From Planctomycetota bacterium (GTDB taxonomy: Bacteria > Planctomycetota > Planctomycetia > Pirellulales > Pirellulaceae): DNA of 49,867 bases. The stretch lies in contig JAQCHP010000018.1 in the NCBI GenBank assembly GCA_027619595.1, forward strand, positions 1-49,867, read 5' to 3'. The notes beneath the pieces were generated by a model. It saw only the letters and a program-made list of their open reading frames with translations, was not told the origin of the DNA and did no database searches. Each line of letters begins with the position of its first letter. The stretch's first letter is position 1. Positions 38,341-47,031 of this stretch are shown here, piece by piece. Position numbers and translations under genes: made by a program.

Positions 38341-38661
38341 TTAGGAATTGCCGCTCTTGCAGCAAGCCGCGGCAGTCGGCAAACTTGTGTCGGCCGTCCG
38401 GCAGCAACTTTCCACGGTGTTACAGCAGTCTTTACCAGTGCGGCAGCAGTCAGCTACAACCGCTTCGTTGCAGCACGCCGCGTCCGCATTGCAACATTCA
38501 AGTCCCAACTGACAACACTCGGGGCGCTCGCTTGCGCAACATGCGCTGGCAGGATTACAGCAAGTGAGTTTCGCTGTGCAGCAATTCGTGTCGACTTGGC
38601 CAGTGCCAGCCCAAGCCAGTCCCATAACCGCCATCGTGCTCAAAAGTATATTTCTTAACAT
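38341..38661 (-). CDS. Secreted cysteine-rich protein with ten Cys-Cys pairs
   Basis: This is a 106-residue protein with a signal peptide (MLRNILLSTMAVMGLAWAG) and a mature part of about 85 residues containing ten C-C doublets. These are separated by 5, 5, 6, 5, 5, 7, 5, 5 and 12 residues, so the mature part is about one quarter cysteine. Intervening residues are small or charged and hardly hydrophobic. I do not recognise the family. The regular spacing suggests a repeated loop, either a metal-binding scaffold (Cu, Zn or Cd) or a disulfide-rich structural protein. AAGG lies about 9 bases before the ATG. A second cysteine-rich protein is encoded just upstream on the same strand. Confidence 0.75.
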   Translation of the reverse strand: MLRNILLSTMAVMGLAWAGTGQVDTNCCTAKLTCCNPASACCASERPECCQLGLECCNADAACCNEAVVADCCRTGKDCCNTVESCCRTADTSLPTAAACCKSGNS

Positions 38662-38734
38662 GGTTAAATGCCTTATTGGAAGTGTCGATATTCAAGAAGA
38701 AAACGAGATATTGATCCTCAATTTGTTTCTTGTA

Positions 38735-39136
38735 TCAACACCGCCAGACACACTTTAAGACATGCAACCGATGCCCTGAGAGTTGCGGGATCCAAAAAAA
38801 ACCTGCGGTCCGCTGTGGGCAACAACTGACTGCGGCGGGACAAGGCTTTTCCAGTACGGCCATTCCCAAGTCGGCACGATTCGGCGATCGCACTGAAGGC
38901 TCTTCCGGGCGTGTTGTTTGCCATTGACAGCGACACCCATGCTTGGAATTGCAAGGGTCATGCGAGCGATGGGACGAGGATTTTGATGCTGGTGCCCCAT
39001 GACAGCAGGTTGGATGGGAATCTACTGCCGCAGGGGAAAAGCACCCCAGCGGTAGTATTGAGCAGCACCACCCAGATGGTGGCAGGGTTGCCACGATCAG
39101 CGACGCTACAGCCATTTGTCGCATGAAATGTTTCAT
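38735..39136 (-). CDS. Secreted Cys/His-rich hypothetical protein
   Basis: This is a 133-residue frame starting with a basic, hydrophobic signal-like segment (MKHFMRQMAVASLIVATLPP) and continuing W-C-C-S, T-C-C-H and C-x-C clusters (HGCRC near residue 69), with several His and Ser residues and a late V-S-C-C-P. It has no recognised domain. Spacing of the C-C pairs is irregular, unlike the neighbour. The reading frame may be genuine because it has the signal and metal-ligand-rich make-up of its neighbour and a -10/-35-like pair upstream, but the start is not supported by a ribosome-binding site. It could be expressed with the CC-repeat gene, 73 bases downstream. Confidence 0.5.
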   Translation of the reverse strand: MKHFMRQMAVASLIVATLPPSGWCCSILPLGCFSPAAVDSHPTCCHGAPASKSSSHRSHDPCNSKHGCRCQWQTTRPEEPSVRSPNRADLGMAVLEKPCPAAVSCCPQRTAGFFWIPQLSGHRLHVLKCVWRC

Positions 39137-39142
39137 AACGCT

Positions 39143-39172
39143 ATTCTACGTGCGGCGGGCAGAAAAGTTCAA
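39143..39172 (-). promoter_or_regulatory. Possible promoter of the Cys-rich pair
   Basis: On the minus strand TTGAAC (39172-39167) is followed, after 18 bases, by TAGAAT (39148-39143, five of six to the -10 consensus). The ATG at 39136 lies only about seven bases downstream, so a transcript from here would have little or no leader. The call is weak and rests on sequence only. Confidence 0.35.
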
Positions 39173-41058: not shown

Positions 41059-44000
41059 ATGCTCGGCGCTCGATTCGATCATCAGCAAGAGCTTCCCAAT
41101 CAAGCTCCCAACCTGCCCGCTCAGCTGGACCCGAAGTTGTTCAGCCGTGAAGCGCTGCTCCGCCGTGGCCTGGACCAAAATCAGGGCCTGCAGCCATTTC
41201 GCGATTCGGCGTTGGAGTGGCTAGTATCCACGGAAATGGATCCGGCCCATCGTCGTGAGCTATTGAGGCGTATTACCCGCCCCGATTATCCGGGCATTGT
41301 CGCCATAGTGGTCCAGGATCTCCAGGCCGAAGGCAGCCAGGGCTTTGGGTCGTTGCAAATTCATTCACAGCTTCTATTGGACCAGTTAGACGAACTCGGC
41401 CAAAAACTACCGGACGTCGTACCAACAGAAGCGTACGTCCGAGCCTACATTCCGAAGCTTCGACCCCGTCCAGAAATCAATCTCGAGCACGATGCAACGG
41501 AGCGGGAGGCGTATCTCAAGCGATTGGCCGATTTCGTTCTGCCGCTCGATCCGGTCCAAAATAGCTTAAAAGCCCATGTACTGTACCATCAAATGGCTCA
41601 CGACCTGACGCAGGGGCGGTGGGACCGCGCCCGTTTCTTGAGTTACCTGAAATTGCCGCGGCAAGTCCCCTACGTGCGTCCCGAATGGCTACGGCAAATC
41701 ATCGTGGGAAATCCACTTGCAGAATTGCAAGCAACGGGCCCCACGGAAGCCACTGGATTGCCGCCGGTCGGGTCCGACGAAGATCTGGTGCGCAAGTATC
41801 TCGACCATCTCTTGGCGGATGCTTCCGACAGCCGCGAATTTGCTCCCTATATCGAAAAGGAATACCTGCAACGAGTATTCGCCGAGTCGAAGTTGACACG
41901 CGGTATCGGCGATGCGAGCCGTTGGTACGCACTAATGAATCCTTCGGAAGTGGAGCAACTACGCACCCGTATCGACCTGGAATTTGCCCCCACAAATCCC
42001 AAAATGTTGTCGCGTGACGAAATTGTAAAGCTCGATCTGGATCTCAAGAACGTTCCCTCACTGATCGTAAAGATCTATGAGATCAATACGCTGAATCAAT
42101 ATCGCCGCGTCAAGCGCGCCGTGGGTCCGGATATTGAATTGGACGGTCTGGTTCCGAACGTGGAGCATACGTTTAAGTACGAAGAAGCTCCTCTGTTACG
42201 CGTGCGACGGTCCTTTTCATTCCCTGAGTTGACGCGTCCAGGTGTGTATGTCGTCGATTTTATCGGCAATGGTCGGAGCAGTCGGGCGATCGTCCGCAAA
42301 GGTGACCTACAAGTGTTCTCGACGATAAATCATCTGGGACACCAGCTATCGGTTTTTGACGAACAACAAAATCCCGTGAACGATGCCGTCGTGTGGTTGG
42401 ATGGGCATCGCTTCTCAGCAGACAAAGATGGCCATCTATTGATTCCATTCACTGCCAAGCCGGGCCCAGTAGATCTGGTAGTACAGCAAGGATCATTGGC
42501 CGTTCTGCGGCCGTTTCATCATGCGGGCGAGATCTTTGAACTGCAAGCGTCAATGTATATTGACCGCGAATCGTTGCTGCCAGGTGTCGATGCTCCGGTG
42601 ATGATTCGGCCGAATCTGTTACTCAATGGAATTCCTATTCCCGTCACTCGGCTCGAAAACACAAAACTGCTTGTACAGACAGTCGACCAAGACGGCATCG
42701 CCACTACGGAAGAAGTCTCGCCCATCACGATCCAGGAGAATGCCGAGACGGTTGTCGTATTTCGGGTGCCCCGCCAATTGGCGACTCTGACACTTACCCT
42801 CGCCGGCAAAGTTCAAAGAATGACCGACGTTGATCCGCAAGACTTGATGGTGAGTCAAACCTATCAGGTCAACGATATCGACGCTACGGACCAACTCGCT
42901 ACGGTCTATTTGCAACGATCGACTGACAGCTACGAGCTAAGTTTGCGTGGAAAATCGGGCGAGGTACTTCCGCAACGACCGGTACACCTCGAATTGAATC
43001 ACCGAGATTTCGTGGAGCCGATTCGTGTCACACTGAAGTCGGACGACCATGGGATCGTTCTGCTGGGTTTACTCGCCGGCATCGATTCTATCAAGGTTAC
43101 CATGGCTCATTCAACAGAACGGCAATGGCAGCTGTTGCAAGACGATCGACAGTACCCGTCGGTAATTAATGCACCGCTGGGCGTGGAGTTGCGCGTGCCG
43201 ATCGTTGTTGCGGCAAAAAATATCAATGGCAAGAATGCGGCGATCAACAGCACCACCTCCGATGTTTCACTTTTGGAAACGGTTGGGACGAGTTTCGTAC
43301 GAAATATGTCGCACCATATCCAAGCGGATGGTCGAGAACTTGTAATTTCCGGTTTGCCCGTGGGTGAATACGACTTGTTCCTGAAAGCGACGGACGACCG
43401 GATACGGGTGCATGTGCTAGACGGAACCCATGATCATGCGACGGTGCGGAACTCTCGGCACGTCGTAGAAGTTTCGCCCCGTTCGGCAGCGTTGATTTCG
43501 GGAGTTGATCCGACCGCCGACAAGCTTGTCATTCGGGTGGCTAATGCAAGTGCCTCGTCTCGCGTGCACATATTTGCAACCCATTTTGAGCCTGCGTGGA
43601 ATGCATTCGAAGGACTCGCACATAGTCCATCAAGCCCGGTTATTTCACGACGACAATGGGAAGGTAATCAATTTGCAGTGGGGCGCAAGATAGGCGATGA
43701 ATACCAATACATTTTAGATCGCAAGTTCGCGACAAGGTTCCCCGGCATCATGCTCCGCCGTCCGGAGCTACTTCTGCATCCCTGGGAACTAACCGAGTCG
43801 GTTTCGCAGCCACAATCTGCCGAGGAGGGATCCGCATTTGCGGGTGAGGCCCGAAAACTGAACGAAAACGCACCTAGTGCGAATTCTCTGGGTCGCACTG
43901 CAACCCGAAGCAGCGATTCTTCGAATCTCAATTTTCTGCCTCATTCATCGTTCCTGGCAGCAAATCTACGGCTCAATGCCGATGGCGTTGTTGAGCTACC

Positions 44001-47000
44001 AATTGCTCAGCTTGCGGCGAGTCGCCAACTGACGGTACTGCTCGTCGACGGTGATGTCACGGAAGCCCGCCATGTGGCATTATCGAAGCAGGAATGGCAG
44101 CCGCGAGATCGTCGCCTTAAGCAGGGATTTCCACAGGATCAGCACCTCATCAGAACGCAAAGGTCGACTTACCTGACGGCCGGCCAATCGCTTCAGTTGG
44201 AAAGCGTGGCAAGCGGTCGCTATCGCATCTACGACACGCTCGACAGTGCCTTTAGATTGCTCAGCACTTTGCAGCCCGACAGCCGATTGGCTGAATTTGC
44301 GTTTCTCGGCAAATGGGGCAGCCTTAGCACAGACGCCAAGCGGGAGAAGTACGATGCGTTCGCCTGTCACGAACTGAATCTGTTTTTGTTTCGAAAAGAC
44401 CGAGAATTTTTTGACTCCATCGTACGCCCTCACCTACAAAACAAGTTGCAAAAAACCTTCCTAGACGATTGGTTGCTGGAGCGAGATTTGTCGCCCTACT
44501 TGGAATCGTGGCGGTACGGACAGTTGAATATTTTGGAACGGATATTGCTGGGTCAGCGAGTTGCAGGAGAGAGAGCGGCGATGCAGCAATTCGTGCGGGA
44601 TCAATTTCAGTTGCAACCGCGGGTTCCACAGTTGTGGGACCGACTCTTCCAGACGGCGCTTGTGGGCCAAAGTCTGGCCGCTGCGAATGTGAGTGGTCCA
44701 TTACCAAGTCATTACTTTGTCGAGGCATTGGATAACGGTGTCGTAAGCGGGGGCAAAGCGGTCGACCTTGAACGTTCAAGCGTCTCAACCGATGGAAGGC
44801 TCGGTTCGGTCGACAGTAATGGGGATATGTCAGGTCGCGTGGTCAGGGGAAGGCAAAGATTTCGTCAACAACGGGAAGCAGAATCTCTCGCGGAGCTATC
44901 GAAGGAACAGCAGATGCCGACTCTGGCATTTCCGGAAGGCCTACGCCGATTCTATCGACAATTGGACTCGACGAAACAATGGGCGGAGACCCATTATGAC
45001 CAAGTTCGGTGGGGGGAAACCGCGGCTTCATTTCTGGCATTAAATTCGGTGTGGCACGATTTTGCCAATGCCCCGATCGATCAACCCTTTGTCCCTGCCA
45101 ATTGGCTTTACGCGCACGGCAGTCGCAACGAAGCGTTGCTGATGTTAGCGGTGTTGGACTTGCCGTTTGAGGCGAAGAAACACGAGCTTGAGACGACGGC
45201 TGCCGGAGTGACCATCCGAGCTGCGAGCCCCGCCTTGGTGTATCACGAAACCTTTGAGTGTGCGGAGGAATCGGCTGCGGATAGTCCAGTGCTCGTCAAT
45301 CAACGCTACTTCGACCCATCCATTCGCAGCGAAGTCATCGCGGGACAACCAAGAGACAAGTATCTGGACACGGACGACTTCGTTGTGCAGCATGTGTACG
45401 GATGTCAAGTGAACGTGAGTAATTCCGCTTCGACGGTCCAAACGATACGCGTATTACTGCAGGTACCTGCCGGATCGATGCCGGTCCAAGGTGGCGTAGA
45501 GACACGTGTCGTGACCTTGCAACTGGCCCCATTTTCCAGTCAAAAGTTGGAATACTTTTTCTATTTTCCGCAGGCTGGTACGTTTGGCCACTATCCGGTG
45601 CAAGTATATGACGATGCGCGTCTATTGGCATTTTTTTCCCCAACCACGTTGACCGTTGCGGAAAAATCGCCGGCGGAAGATCCAACGTCGTGGAACTACG
45701 TTTCCCAATTTGGTACGGAATCTCAGGTGTTAGAATTTCTTGCGAAAGAGAATGTACATGGTCTTCAACTTGACAGAATCGCGTTTCGCATGCGTGATCG
45801 TGATTTTTTTGGGAAGACGCTCGAGGAACTCCGCAGGAGACACGTGTACGAGCCTGCGCTATGGTCGTACGGAATCTATCATCGGGATTCGGTCAGTGCA
45901 CGCGAACTGATTTCACAGACTTCGACATTTGTTCAACAGTGTGGCGGCTACCTTCAATGCGAATTGCTGGTCATTGACGAAAAGGAGCGTCGGCAATACG
46001 AGCATTTGGAATTCCGGCCTCTCGTCAACGCAAGGGCACATCGATTGGGCGCTCGCCGACAAATTGCGGACCCCCAGGTGCATGGACAATTCCTGAGATT
46101 CCTCAAGACTCTCAGTTACAAGCCGAATTTGGCCAGTCAGGATTGGCTTGAGGTGACATATTACTTGTTGCTCCAAGACCGATTGAAAGAGGCTTTGGCA
46201 ACTTTCCAGCGAGTTCAGCCGAACGAAATTCCTGAGCAAATGCAATATGACTATACACGTGCTTACCTTGATTGCTTGCAAGACGATCCTCAGATCGCTC
46301 GTGAAATCACCAAGAAGTATGTCGATTATCCGGTACTGGCTTGGCGGAAAGCATTTGCTGCGATTCGCGGCGTATTAAATGAATTGGAAGGGCACGCCGT
46401 TGAATTGGTGGACAAGACCGATCCGACTCAAGTGCAAACAAAGATGGCTGATCAGGTTCCAACGATTGATGTACGCTACGAAAACGAACAGGTACGAGTC
46501 GATTACGCTCATGTTGATCAGTTGCAAGTGAACTATTACCTGATGGACCTCGAAGTTCTTTTCAGCCGAAATCCATTCTTGAAATCTTTTTCGGGAGAAT
46601 TTGCCACCATCCGGCCCAATGACAGTCGGGAAGTTAAATTGGATGGCAAGGGCCGGTTCGTGCAACTGTCCCTACCGGAAGGGTTGCAACGACGTAATGT
46701 GCTGGTGGAGATCGAGGCCGGGGAACAGGTCCGTTCGCTCCCGATCTACTCCCATGACATGTCGATTCAACTGTTAGAGAATCATGGTCAGATCCAGGTT
46801 CAACATGCAGCGACCGCCAAACCACTATCCAAGGTCTATGTCAAAGTCTACGCGGAGAATCAGGATGGATCGGTGTCGTTTTATAAGGACGGCTACACCG
46901 ACGTGCGCGGACGGTTTGACTATGCGGCGGTCAGCACAAACCAACTGGATAACGTAAAACGCTTTGCTTTGCTATTGATGAGCGACGAACACGGGGCCAC

Positions 47001-47031
47001 GGTTCGTGAAGCCCAGCGGCCCAAGCAATGA
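41059..47031 (+). CDS. Very large alpha-2-macroglobulin-like (MG-domain) secreted protein
   Basis: This is a 1,990-residue frame; with the upstream part the original protein would be about 2,117 residues. It contains multiple beta-sandwich stretches like macroglobulin MG domains (LQVFSTINHLGHQLSVFDEQ; LVQQGSLAVLRPFHHAGEIF; a final CnaB/MG-like part with KVYVKVYAENQDGSVSF, then DGYTDVRGRFDY). Macroglobulin-type proteins act as protease traps or adhesion scaffolds. The thioester motif (CxEQ) was not seen, so a trap mechanism would be atypical. The ATG at 41059 is the first after the TGA but lacks a signal peptide; the natural start is 40678. It is convergent with the next gene. Assignment to the macroglobulin superfamily is moderate. 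Confidence 0.65.
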   Translation: MLGARFDHQQELPNQAPNLPAQLDPKLFSREALLRRGLDQNQGLQPFRDSALEWLVSTEMDPAHRRELLRRITRPDYPGIVAIVVQDLQAEGSQGFGSLQIHSQLLLDQLDELGQKLPDVVPTEAYVRAYIPKLRPRPEINLEHDATEREAYLKRLADFVLPLDPVQNSLKAHVLYHQMAHDLTQGRWDRARFLSYLKLPRQVPYVRPEWLRQIIVGNPLAELQATGPTEATGLPPVGSDEDLVRKYLDHLLADASDSREFAPYIEKEYLQRVFAESKLTRGIGDASRWYALMNPSEVEQLRTRIDLEFAPTNPKMLSRDEIVKLDLDLKNVPSLIVKIYEINTLNQYRRVKRAVGPDIELDGLVPNVEHTFKYEEAPLLRVRRSFSFPELTRPGVYVVDFIGNGRSSRAIVRKGDLQVFSTINHLGHQLSVFDEQQNPVNDAVVWLDGHRFSADKDGHLLIPFTAKPGPVDLVVQQGSLAVLRPFHHAGEIFELQASMYIDRESLLPGVDAPVMIRPNLLLNGIPIPVTRLENTKLLVQTVDQDGIATTEEVSPITIQENAETVVVFRVPRQLATLTLTLAGKVQRMTDVDPQDLMVSQTYQVNDIDATDQLATVYLQRSTDSYELSLRGKSGEVLPQRPVHLELNHRDFVEPIRVTLKSDDHGIVLLGLLAGIDSIKVTMAHSTERQWQLLQDDRQYPSVINAPLGVELRVPIVVAAKNINGKNAAINSTTSDVSLLETVGTSFVRNMSHHIQADGRELVISGLPVGEYDLFLKATDDRIRVHVLDGTHDHATVRNSRHVVEVSPRSAALISGVDPTADKLVIRVANASASSRVHIFATHFEPAWNAFEGLAHSPSSPVISRRQWEGNQFAVGRKIGDEYQYILDRKFATRFPGIMLRRPELLLHPWELTESVSQPQSAEEGSAFAGEARKLNENAPSANSLGRTATRSSDSSNLNFLPHSSFLAANLRLNADGVVELPIAQLAASRQLTVLLVDGDVTEARHVALSKQEWQPRDRRLKQGFPQDQHLIRTQRSTYLTAGQSLQLESVASGRYRIYDTLDSAFRLLSTLQPDSRLAEFAFLGKWGSLSTDAKREKYDAFACHELNLFLFRKDREFFDSIVRPHLQNKLQKTFLDDWLLERDLSPYLESWRYGQLNILERILLGQRVAGERAAMQQFVRDQFQLQPRVPQLWDRLFQTALVGQSLAAANVSGPLPSHYFVEALDNGVVSGGKAVDLERSSVSTDGRLGSVDSNGDMSGRVVRGRQRFRQQREAESLAELSKEQQMPTLAFPEGLRRFYRQLDSTKQWAETHYDQVRWGETAASFLALNSVWHDFANAPIDQPFVPANWLYAHGSRNEALLMLAVLDLPFEAKKHELETTAAGVTIRAASPALVYHETFECAEESAADSPVLVNQRYFDPSIRSEVIAGQPRDKYLDTDDFVVQHVYGCQVNVSNSASTVQTIRVLLQVPAGSMPVQGGVETRVVTLQLAPFSSQKLEYFFYFPQAGTFGHYPVQVYDDARLLAFFSPTTLTVAEKSPAEDPTSWNYVSQFGTESQVLEFLAKENVHGLQLDRIAFRMRDRDFFGKTLEELRRRHVYEPALWSYGIYHRDSVSARELISQTSTFVQQCGGYLQCELLVIDEKERRQYEHLEFRPLVNARAHRLGARRQIADPQVHGQFLRFLKTLSYKPNLASQDWLEVTYYLLLQDRLKEALATFQRVQPNEIPEQMQYDYTRAYLDCLQDDPQIAREITKKYVDYPVLAWRKAFAAIRGVLNELEGHAVELVDKTDPTQVQTKMADQVPTIDVRYENEQVRVDYAHVDQLQVNYYLMDLEVLFSRNPFLKSFSGEFATIRPNDSREVKLDGKGRFVQLSLPEGLQRRNVLVEIEAGEQVRSLPIYSHDMSIQLLENHGQIQVQHAATAKPLSKVYVKVYAENQDGSVSFYKDGYTDVRGRFDYAAVSTNQLDNVKRFALLLMSDEHGATVREAQRPKQ

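Follow-up and report, generated by a model that had tools for sequence, protein, structure and literature searches.

The leader–CC cassette

The window, here the whole analyzed stretch of 49,867 nt from a planctomycete contig, carries on its minus strand a small leader gene and, directly downstream, a gene for a small exported protein built from Cys-Cys doublets (the CC protein), preceded by a promoter-like element and joined by a predicted RNA structure in which the last codons of the leader pair with the Shine-Dalgarno sequence (SD) of the CC gene (Table 1). Further along the window, positions 41059-47031 hold a 1990-aa ORF whose first 1314 residues were without a Pfam match at E values up to 1.

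Table 1. Positions of the cassette features in the window.
Feature	Position	Strand	Description or basis
CC protein gene	38341..38661	minus	ATG at 38661, end at 38341, 106 aa; putatively exported; its ten CC doublets are largely spaced as CC-x5 heptads
SD side UAAGGCAU	38668..38675	minus	Includes AAGG, the CC-gene SD; fold and duplex
Leader–CC intergenic region, 73 nt	38662..38734	minus	Predicted hairpin
Anti-SD AUGUCUUA, codons of H-V-L	38756..38763	minus	Pairs with the SD side; covariation, 46 loci
Leader gene, 133 aa	38735..39136	minus	Signal-peptide-like start, Cys sites, end LHVLKCVWRC-stop
Promoter-like element GAAC-N16-CGTAGAAT	39143..39170	minus	6 nt before the leader ATG

Sequence and distribution of the CC protein

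The CC protein has a signal-peptide-like N-terminus with cleavage placed after residue 21 (judged by eye), leaving a mature chain of 85 residues in which each of the 20 Cys lies in a doublet (p = 1.5e-8 under random placement). The nine gaps between its ten doublets measure 5, 5, 6, 5, 5, 7, 5, 5, and 12 residues, six of them being exactly 5. Across 60 homologous frames, with near-copies kept in the count, 593 of 615 Cys runs were doublets, 22 were single, and none were longer, and neighboring doublets were exactly five residues apart in 382 of 521 gaps. Some members contain two domain copies (L022), those of genus g61 have six doublets, and in the proteins of L052 and L053 (genomes G492 and G548) several doublets have changed to HC, SC, or CH; the leaders beside these last two CC genes have HSHC or HPHC as the distal Cys site.

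In the x5 loops of the family Ala, Glu, Gly, and Lys are abundant, and the helix cost of the loops was lower than that of leader residues (0.56 vs 0.76); a helical form for the loops is a guess from the sequence, and both AlphaFold models were poor (pLDDT 52 for the CC protein). The CC protein of the window matched no Pfam or NCBIfam family, including the metallothionein profiles of both collections, and 17 CC homologues compared with Pfam yielded one stray match (E 0.24).

In a first search of 60 genomes (E up to 0.01), 12 were matched, the genome of the window included, and four besides it contained clear homologues; one locus (L006) encoded a different, Pro-rich repeat, and six further loci (L007-L012) had no frame with four or more doublets. 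A CC profile then matched 19 of 296 genomes and 14 of 122 genera of the order, 56 of 397 sampled genomes and 35 of 186 genera of the class, and 9 of 294 genomes in a sample of the phylum; counted in these tallies are the genome of the window and a number of proteins that match weakly or are of another kind (G006, G318). The 11 named CC loci came from planctomycete MAGs and Limnoglobus roseus. The CC proteins are a real family for which Pfam and NCBIfam lack a model. Spread on phages was considered and rejected, with no relative confirmed in viral contigs using a five-sequence query (A5), as was spread on plasmids, the CC protein of the window having no plasmid match. A separate exported repeat protein with CCxPAPV units, Pro-rich loops, and no leader seen was found at L034:1399-1830 and L006:1351-2004; it was set apart from the CC family as another kind.

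These data bear out what the initial annotation had reported of the CC protein, namely ten doublets at mostly five-residue intervals in an 85-residue mature chain, secretion, and placement outside known families. As refuting its reading it had named a lack of homologues in any related genome together with a lack of transcript or peptide; homologues exist. Its observation was a real one; the strand, the conserved upstream gene, and the RNA pairing between leader and CC gene were absent from it.

A conserved leader precedes the CC gene

In the window and at the four first homologous loci, the leader lies directly upstream of the CC gene on the same strand and encodes a Cys-rich protein of ∼119-148 aa (starts chosen by the author) with a hydrophobic start seen by eye. 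Within the order it adjoins the CC gene upstream in 16 of the 19 matched genomes, being absent in G006, G044, and G281, and across the class a leader profile matched 60 of 397 genomes and 40 of 186 genera. Among 83 scanned loci, which were chosen for one cassette gene or the other, a CC gene was found in 67, a leader in 70, and both in 54; none of 40 control regions contained either gene. Contigs present in two collections, recognized by their length and encoded proteins, were counted once (L055 = L013, L056 = L014, L057 = L023, L058 = L022, L059 = L198, L060 = L197, L062 = L200, L063 = L024, L064 = L199, and L065 = L222), and other near relatives remain in the counts. L231 and L232, near-copies of L098, were excluded from the duplex, spacing, and codon counts and retained among the 48 leader–CC pairs and 43 folds described below.

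The leader sequence is divergent except for its Cys sites and its extreme C-terminus. Over 46 loci the C-terminal consensus is PPLHVLxCVWRC-stop, with W in 45, the inner Cys in 43, V in 41, and the final Cys in 39, and synonymous codons vary freely across this conserved end. The Pro residues are less constant: P occupies the two PP positions in 19 and 26 of the 46 loci, and 15 of 46 leaders have PP somewhere in their last 18 residues, the leader of the window ending without it. When leaders were right-aligned without gaps, pairwise identity was 9% in the spacer vs 55% in the last 12 residues. The leaders have a Cys site at a near-constant distance from the C-terminal motif: the median distance between the last Cys cluster and the end is 61 residues (IQR 60-63, range 23-98, n = 45), and a Cys site sought 50-75 residues from the end was found at 61.5 +/- 2.4 in 43 of 45 leaders, L097 and L098 not fitting and L221 being left out for its short frame. 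The leader of the window is counted as 28 owing to an extra CC, and its CxC site is 65 residues from the end.

The window leader had no Pfam or NCBIfam match. DUF2946 (PF11162) in particular was without a match in the genome of the window at E values up to 1 (a control search matched 9 of 14 genomes, one of them over the cut-off), and none of 17 leaders compared with Pfam matched it. Because that profile does not match, the leader was not filed as DUF2946.

Predicted pairing of leader codons with the Shine-Dalgarno sequence of the CC gene

Leader and CC gene are separated by 73-130 nt in 42 of 48 pairs (range 73-232). Folds from the leader end to the CC start had a mean z of -2.04 against simple shuffles, with z < -1 in 36 of 43, the five pairs with an intergenic region >140 nt not being folded; in the window, positions 38650-38780 folded with a z of -3.97, and 0 of 200 dinucleotide shuffles were as stable. 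The pairing joins the SD to the codons of the leader end, AUGUCUUA with UAAGGCAU in the window, CCTCCAGTGC with GCACTGGAGG in L201, and TCACGTTCT with AGGACGTGA in L092.

Over 46 loci, mean duplex energies were -12.65 kcal/mol for native pairs, -10.16 for all pairings, and -8.14 for shuffled SDs, and none of 10,000 permutations reached the native value (best -11.69). The effect drops when the leader or SD stretch is shifted, and it persisted in 25 non-redundant loci (native -12.07 vs -9.78; 0 of 2000 permutations as low); kinship among loci is only partly removed from these statistics. Of five control windows, four gave p values of 0.06-0.94 and one gave 0.0065, and across 65 pairs of unrelated genes on the same strand the native duplexes did not differ from swapped ones (-10.14 and -10.02). 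A duplex at or below -12 kcal/mol was more frequent in cassettes than in these controls (28 of 46 vs 17 of 65; one-sided Fisher 2e-4). The native SD ranked first or tied in only 2 of 46 loci (median rank 8), because the loci have similar SDs and swapped SDs pair fairly well. Codon choice was also inspected at the motif Leu, whose codon can supply CTCC: CTC was used in 19 of 38 cases vs 68 of 350 elsewhere in the leader genes (Fisher 7e-5), and no difference was seen from the ten codons immediately before the motif Leu (9 of 27; p 0.14). Sequestration of the CC SD by the leader-end codons, with both sides covarying, is supported by computation, and in silico the cassette has an RNA structure that shields the SD of the next gene.

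Promoter-like element

Upstream of the first gene lies a conserved pair of -35-like and -10-like elements at fixed spacing. Of 27 loci, 16 have the exact motif GAAC-N16/17-CGTA within 80 nt (shuffle mean 0.075) and 11 have it within 20 nt (shuffle mean 0.01), and in a wider set it was present in 16 of 46 loci vs 13 of 1067 other upstream regions; the motif was first spotted by eye in many of the same sequences and is rarer outside that first set. We take the element to resemble ECF promoters, and, to judge from its position, the candidate promoter, if used, could give a nearly leaderless mRNA. In four of the five loci of genus g61, GAAC-N17-CGTA is 46-63 nt upstream of the ATG and overlaps a sigma-70-like TTGACT, so that its ECF-like reading there is tentative.

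In the genome of the window, GAACTT-N14/15-CGTA had 24 hits, as many as the reversed control (also 24), and 20 of the 24 lay inside ORFs of 244 aa or more; since the hits were no more numerous than in the control and mostly within ORFs, no wider regulon was found. A stricter pattern gave 12 hits in 13 genomes, six of them cassette promoters. At L043:977-2972 (G478), genes for an ECF sigma factor and an anti-sigma factor with a zinc finger run divergently from a weak leader homologue and the gene for a small HMBD protein behind it, and this sigma/anti-sigma pair is a candidate for the missing regulator.

Metal-related neighbors and other outputs

Genes for metal handling adjoin the cassette at a minority of loci. 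In L059 and L060 a CopA-type ATPase lies downstream of the CC gene, scoring 617 and 618 bits, respectively, on the Cu model TIGR01511 (cut-off 397), below the CopA equivalog cut-off, and 434 and 428 bits on the Cd model (cut-off 313.5). Between the CC gene and the ATPase of L059 is a Csp homologue without a Pfam match (E 7.7e-9 to 3lmf, 7.1e-6 to Csp3, and 9.7e-5 to Csp1); in L218 the CC gene is followed by a Csp homologue and a 206-aa piece that resembles the N-terminus of that ATPase and has no NCBIfam match, and in L085 an ATPase piece after the CC gene is cut by the contig end. The P1B ATPase of L174 exceeded both cut-offs (Cd 438.6, Cu 422.2) and is preceded by a metal-sensitive repressor (PF02583) closest to the FrmR/RcnR models, below their cut-offs. 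The region L060:3887-4174, near the cassette and CopA, encodes a small exported protein whose sequence repeats in tandem around TCPITGEVLPCEKCCPLNE.

Taken together, a P1B, Csp, HME-RND, CusB, CsoR-type, or HMBD marker was found at 12 of 83 cassette loci vs 1 of 40 control regions (one-sided Fisher 0.036), the control regions being shorter (401 vs 952 kb in all) and several of the 12 loci weak, with L220, L230, and L194 weak or unclear. No metal gene was found within the 13 kb scanned at the window locus. This association with metal-export neighbors at a minority of loci is supported by computation, as are the two-gene cassette, the conserved leader C-terminus, and the Cys-to-end spacing.

Some leaders head genes other than a CC gene, including a CusB-like adaptor with HMBD plus a CusA/CzcA pump (L182), a CusB-like adaptor with HMBD (L187), an HMA protein behind a weak leader (L176), and a YHS-like protein, below cut-off (L185). 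At such leaders the duplex with the next SD was at or below -12 kcal/mol in 7 of 20 (L043, L178, L182, L187, L189, L190, and L196), which is not above the 17 of 65 controls (p 0.31), so the RNA lock is supported for CC cassettes and not yet for the others. In L178:6742-7116 and L190:2532-3017 the place of the CC protein behind the leader is taken by another Cys-rich exported protein, of the CCACCEKGCYCC type. The contig shared by L062 and L200 carries, at L200:7628-10701 and on the opposite strand from the CC cassette, another leader-like gene; its product ends in LRILHCVWLT, and behind it come a CusB-like adaptor and the beginning of an RND pump.

Comparison with known proteins and sensors

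The CC protein resembles metallothioneins in being small, very Cys-rich, and devoid of any other obvious domain; it differs from them in its predicted export, its CC-x5 heptads, and the lack of a Pfam or NCBIfam match, and its metal binding is putative. With Csp proteins, which are four-helix bundles with spaced Cys, it shares Cys richness and, in L059 and L218, the neighborhood of a Csp homologue; no sequence match was found between the CC family and Csp. Doublets at short gaps recall granulins, which also have single Cys flanking four CC, and disulfides.

The leader has several counterparts among upstream ORFs. CutF of Rhodobacter capsulatus is an exported protein that senses copper as a nascent chain; when its export is delayed, an RNA structure covering the SD of cutO opens, and CutF-like proteins were filtered by a PP within the last 15 residues (PMC9973294). 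Like CutF, the leader is a small, putatively exported first-gene protein with a Cys metal site (putative here), a conserved C-terminus, a predicted RNA structure over the next SD, and, at some loci, downstream genes of metal homeostasis that include CusA and CusB types. Unlike CutF, it has the anti-SD inside its own last codons, ends in PPLHVLxCVWRC-stop with PP in a minority of loci and no DUF2946 match, and usually has the CC protein as its output. CruR of Bordetella pertussis (bp2923, DUF2946) needs a set distance from CXXC to RAPP and works via Rho-dependent termination, copper turning its operon down, and a few DUF2946 homologues occur in Planctomycetes (PMC9426467). The leader, which we propose to be an exported uORF sensor, likewise keeps the distance from Cys to C-terminal motif (45 in CruR vs ∼61), but the genome of the window is without a PF11162 match. 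For CutF and CruR themselves, arrest lacks direct demonstration according to PMC10987492 (2024). The same source describes LPPP arrest peptides of Planctomycetota (Phycisphaerales, UBA1161, and WQYP01) with a Sec/YidC theme; these too are uORFs with a conserved C-terminal motif, from the same phylum, and the motif differs.

Proposed mechanism and alternatives

The reading we prefer, with moderate confidence, is that the CC protein is a secreted metallothionein-like buffer, most probably for Cu(I), under translational gating by a nascent-chain metal sensor. The CC protein would be an exported thiol buffer that takes up a soft metal outside the cytoplasm, and it would be made from a two-gene message in which the small exported product of the first gene acts as the sensor. 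Without metal, the conserved C-terminal codons of the leader would pair with the CC SD and keep the CC gene closed; metal on the leader Cys site would hold the ribosome at the PPLHVLxCVWRC-stop end, and the held ribosome would cover or unwind the anti-SD, freeing the SD so that CC protein is made. As the Cys site lies ∼61 residues from the end, it would have just emerged from the ribosome and translocon when the stop codon is reached. That metal is bound, that this metal is copper, that the ribosome stalls, and which sign the control has are all inferred, with copper the best single guess. More tentatively, the leaders may represent an undescribed planctomycete class of nascent-chain sensor in which the arrest codons are themselves the anti-SD and the outputs are modular, chiefly a new family of exported proteins made of CC-x5 heptads, a cysteine zipper for Cu(I) storage outside the cytoplasm; the duplex counts at leaders of other genes, which do not exceed those of controls, make this reading somewhat less likely.

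A rival judged rather unlikely keeps the design with another metal, the secreted buffer binding Zn, Cd, Hg, As(III), or more than one soft metal. The L174 locus, where a PF02583 repressor accompanies a P1B ATPase that passes the Cd as well as the Cu cut-off, fits Zn/Cd export as well as copper, and ciliate Cd metallothioneins also contain CC doublets; however, in L059 and L060 the ATPase scores on the Cu model exceed those on the Cd model by a wide margin, and the Csp homologue at L059 also counts against a non-copper metal. Another, improbable reading retains the CC protein as a metal buffer, with the leader an exported metal-binding protein of the ordinary sort and the SD pairing simple translational coupling, in which a ribosome completing the leader would open the CC start without metal sensing. 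An upstream coding sequence that covers the SD suffices for coupling, yet coupling needs neither a conserved peptide end that extends past the anti-SD to the stop with synonymous codons free, nor a near-constant Cys-to-end spacing across a divergent spacer.

Between a metal-binding loop and a disulfide ladder, both raised by the initial annotation, metal is the likelier use, and the ladder is kept as a rival. A granulin-like disulfide ladder serving envelope structure or binding would suit an exported protein with doublets at short, regular gaps, and granulins were the only solved-structure matches of the CC family profile; these matches were non-significant, though (E 0.35-0.76), the metal-export neighbors at a minority of loci speak against it, and the decay of doublets to HC, SC, or CH in L052 and L053 fits metal ligands better than paired disulfides; we regard the ladder as quite improbable. 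Identity with granulins as such was rejected on those E values and on the confinement of all 20 mature-chain Cys to doublets. The wall element that the initial annotation had also envisaged was discarded: no wall gene appeared in the neighbor lists read, no supporting context was found at CC loci, a minority of which point to copper or heavy-metal handling, and nothing relevant was found in the open-access literature searched. Finally, bufferins are RiPPs that chelate excess copper (PMC12452194), and a CC protein of this type would carry Cys modified by an MNIO enzyme; PF05114 (MNIO) had no match in the genome of the window (∼96% complete), whereas this search did detect the gene in Caulobacter, and this explanation was rejected as extremely improbable.

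Implications

In the preferred reading, a Cu(I) buffer gated by a nascent-chain sensor, one set of codons serves both as lock and as proposed arrest motif, an unusually clean layout in which effects of the RNA can be told from those of the peptide by synonymous changes. No description of the leader–CC cassette was found in the open-access literature searched, and the leader class, the coding-sequence lock, and the CC output appear new; uORF sensors as such are not new to the phylum, given the DUF2946 homologues and LPPP peptides described in PMC9426467 and PMC10987492. If the reading is true, the leader would be a planctomycete version unrelated in sequence, and the sensing principle would have evolved or spread more widely. 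Its output would be an exported metallothionein-like protein of CC heptads, of which we know no example from bacteria and none was described in the open-access literature searched, and small Cys-rich planctomycete genes left unnamed by Pfam and NCBIfam models would gain a function.
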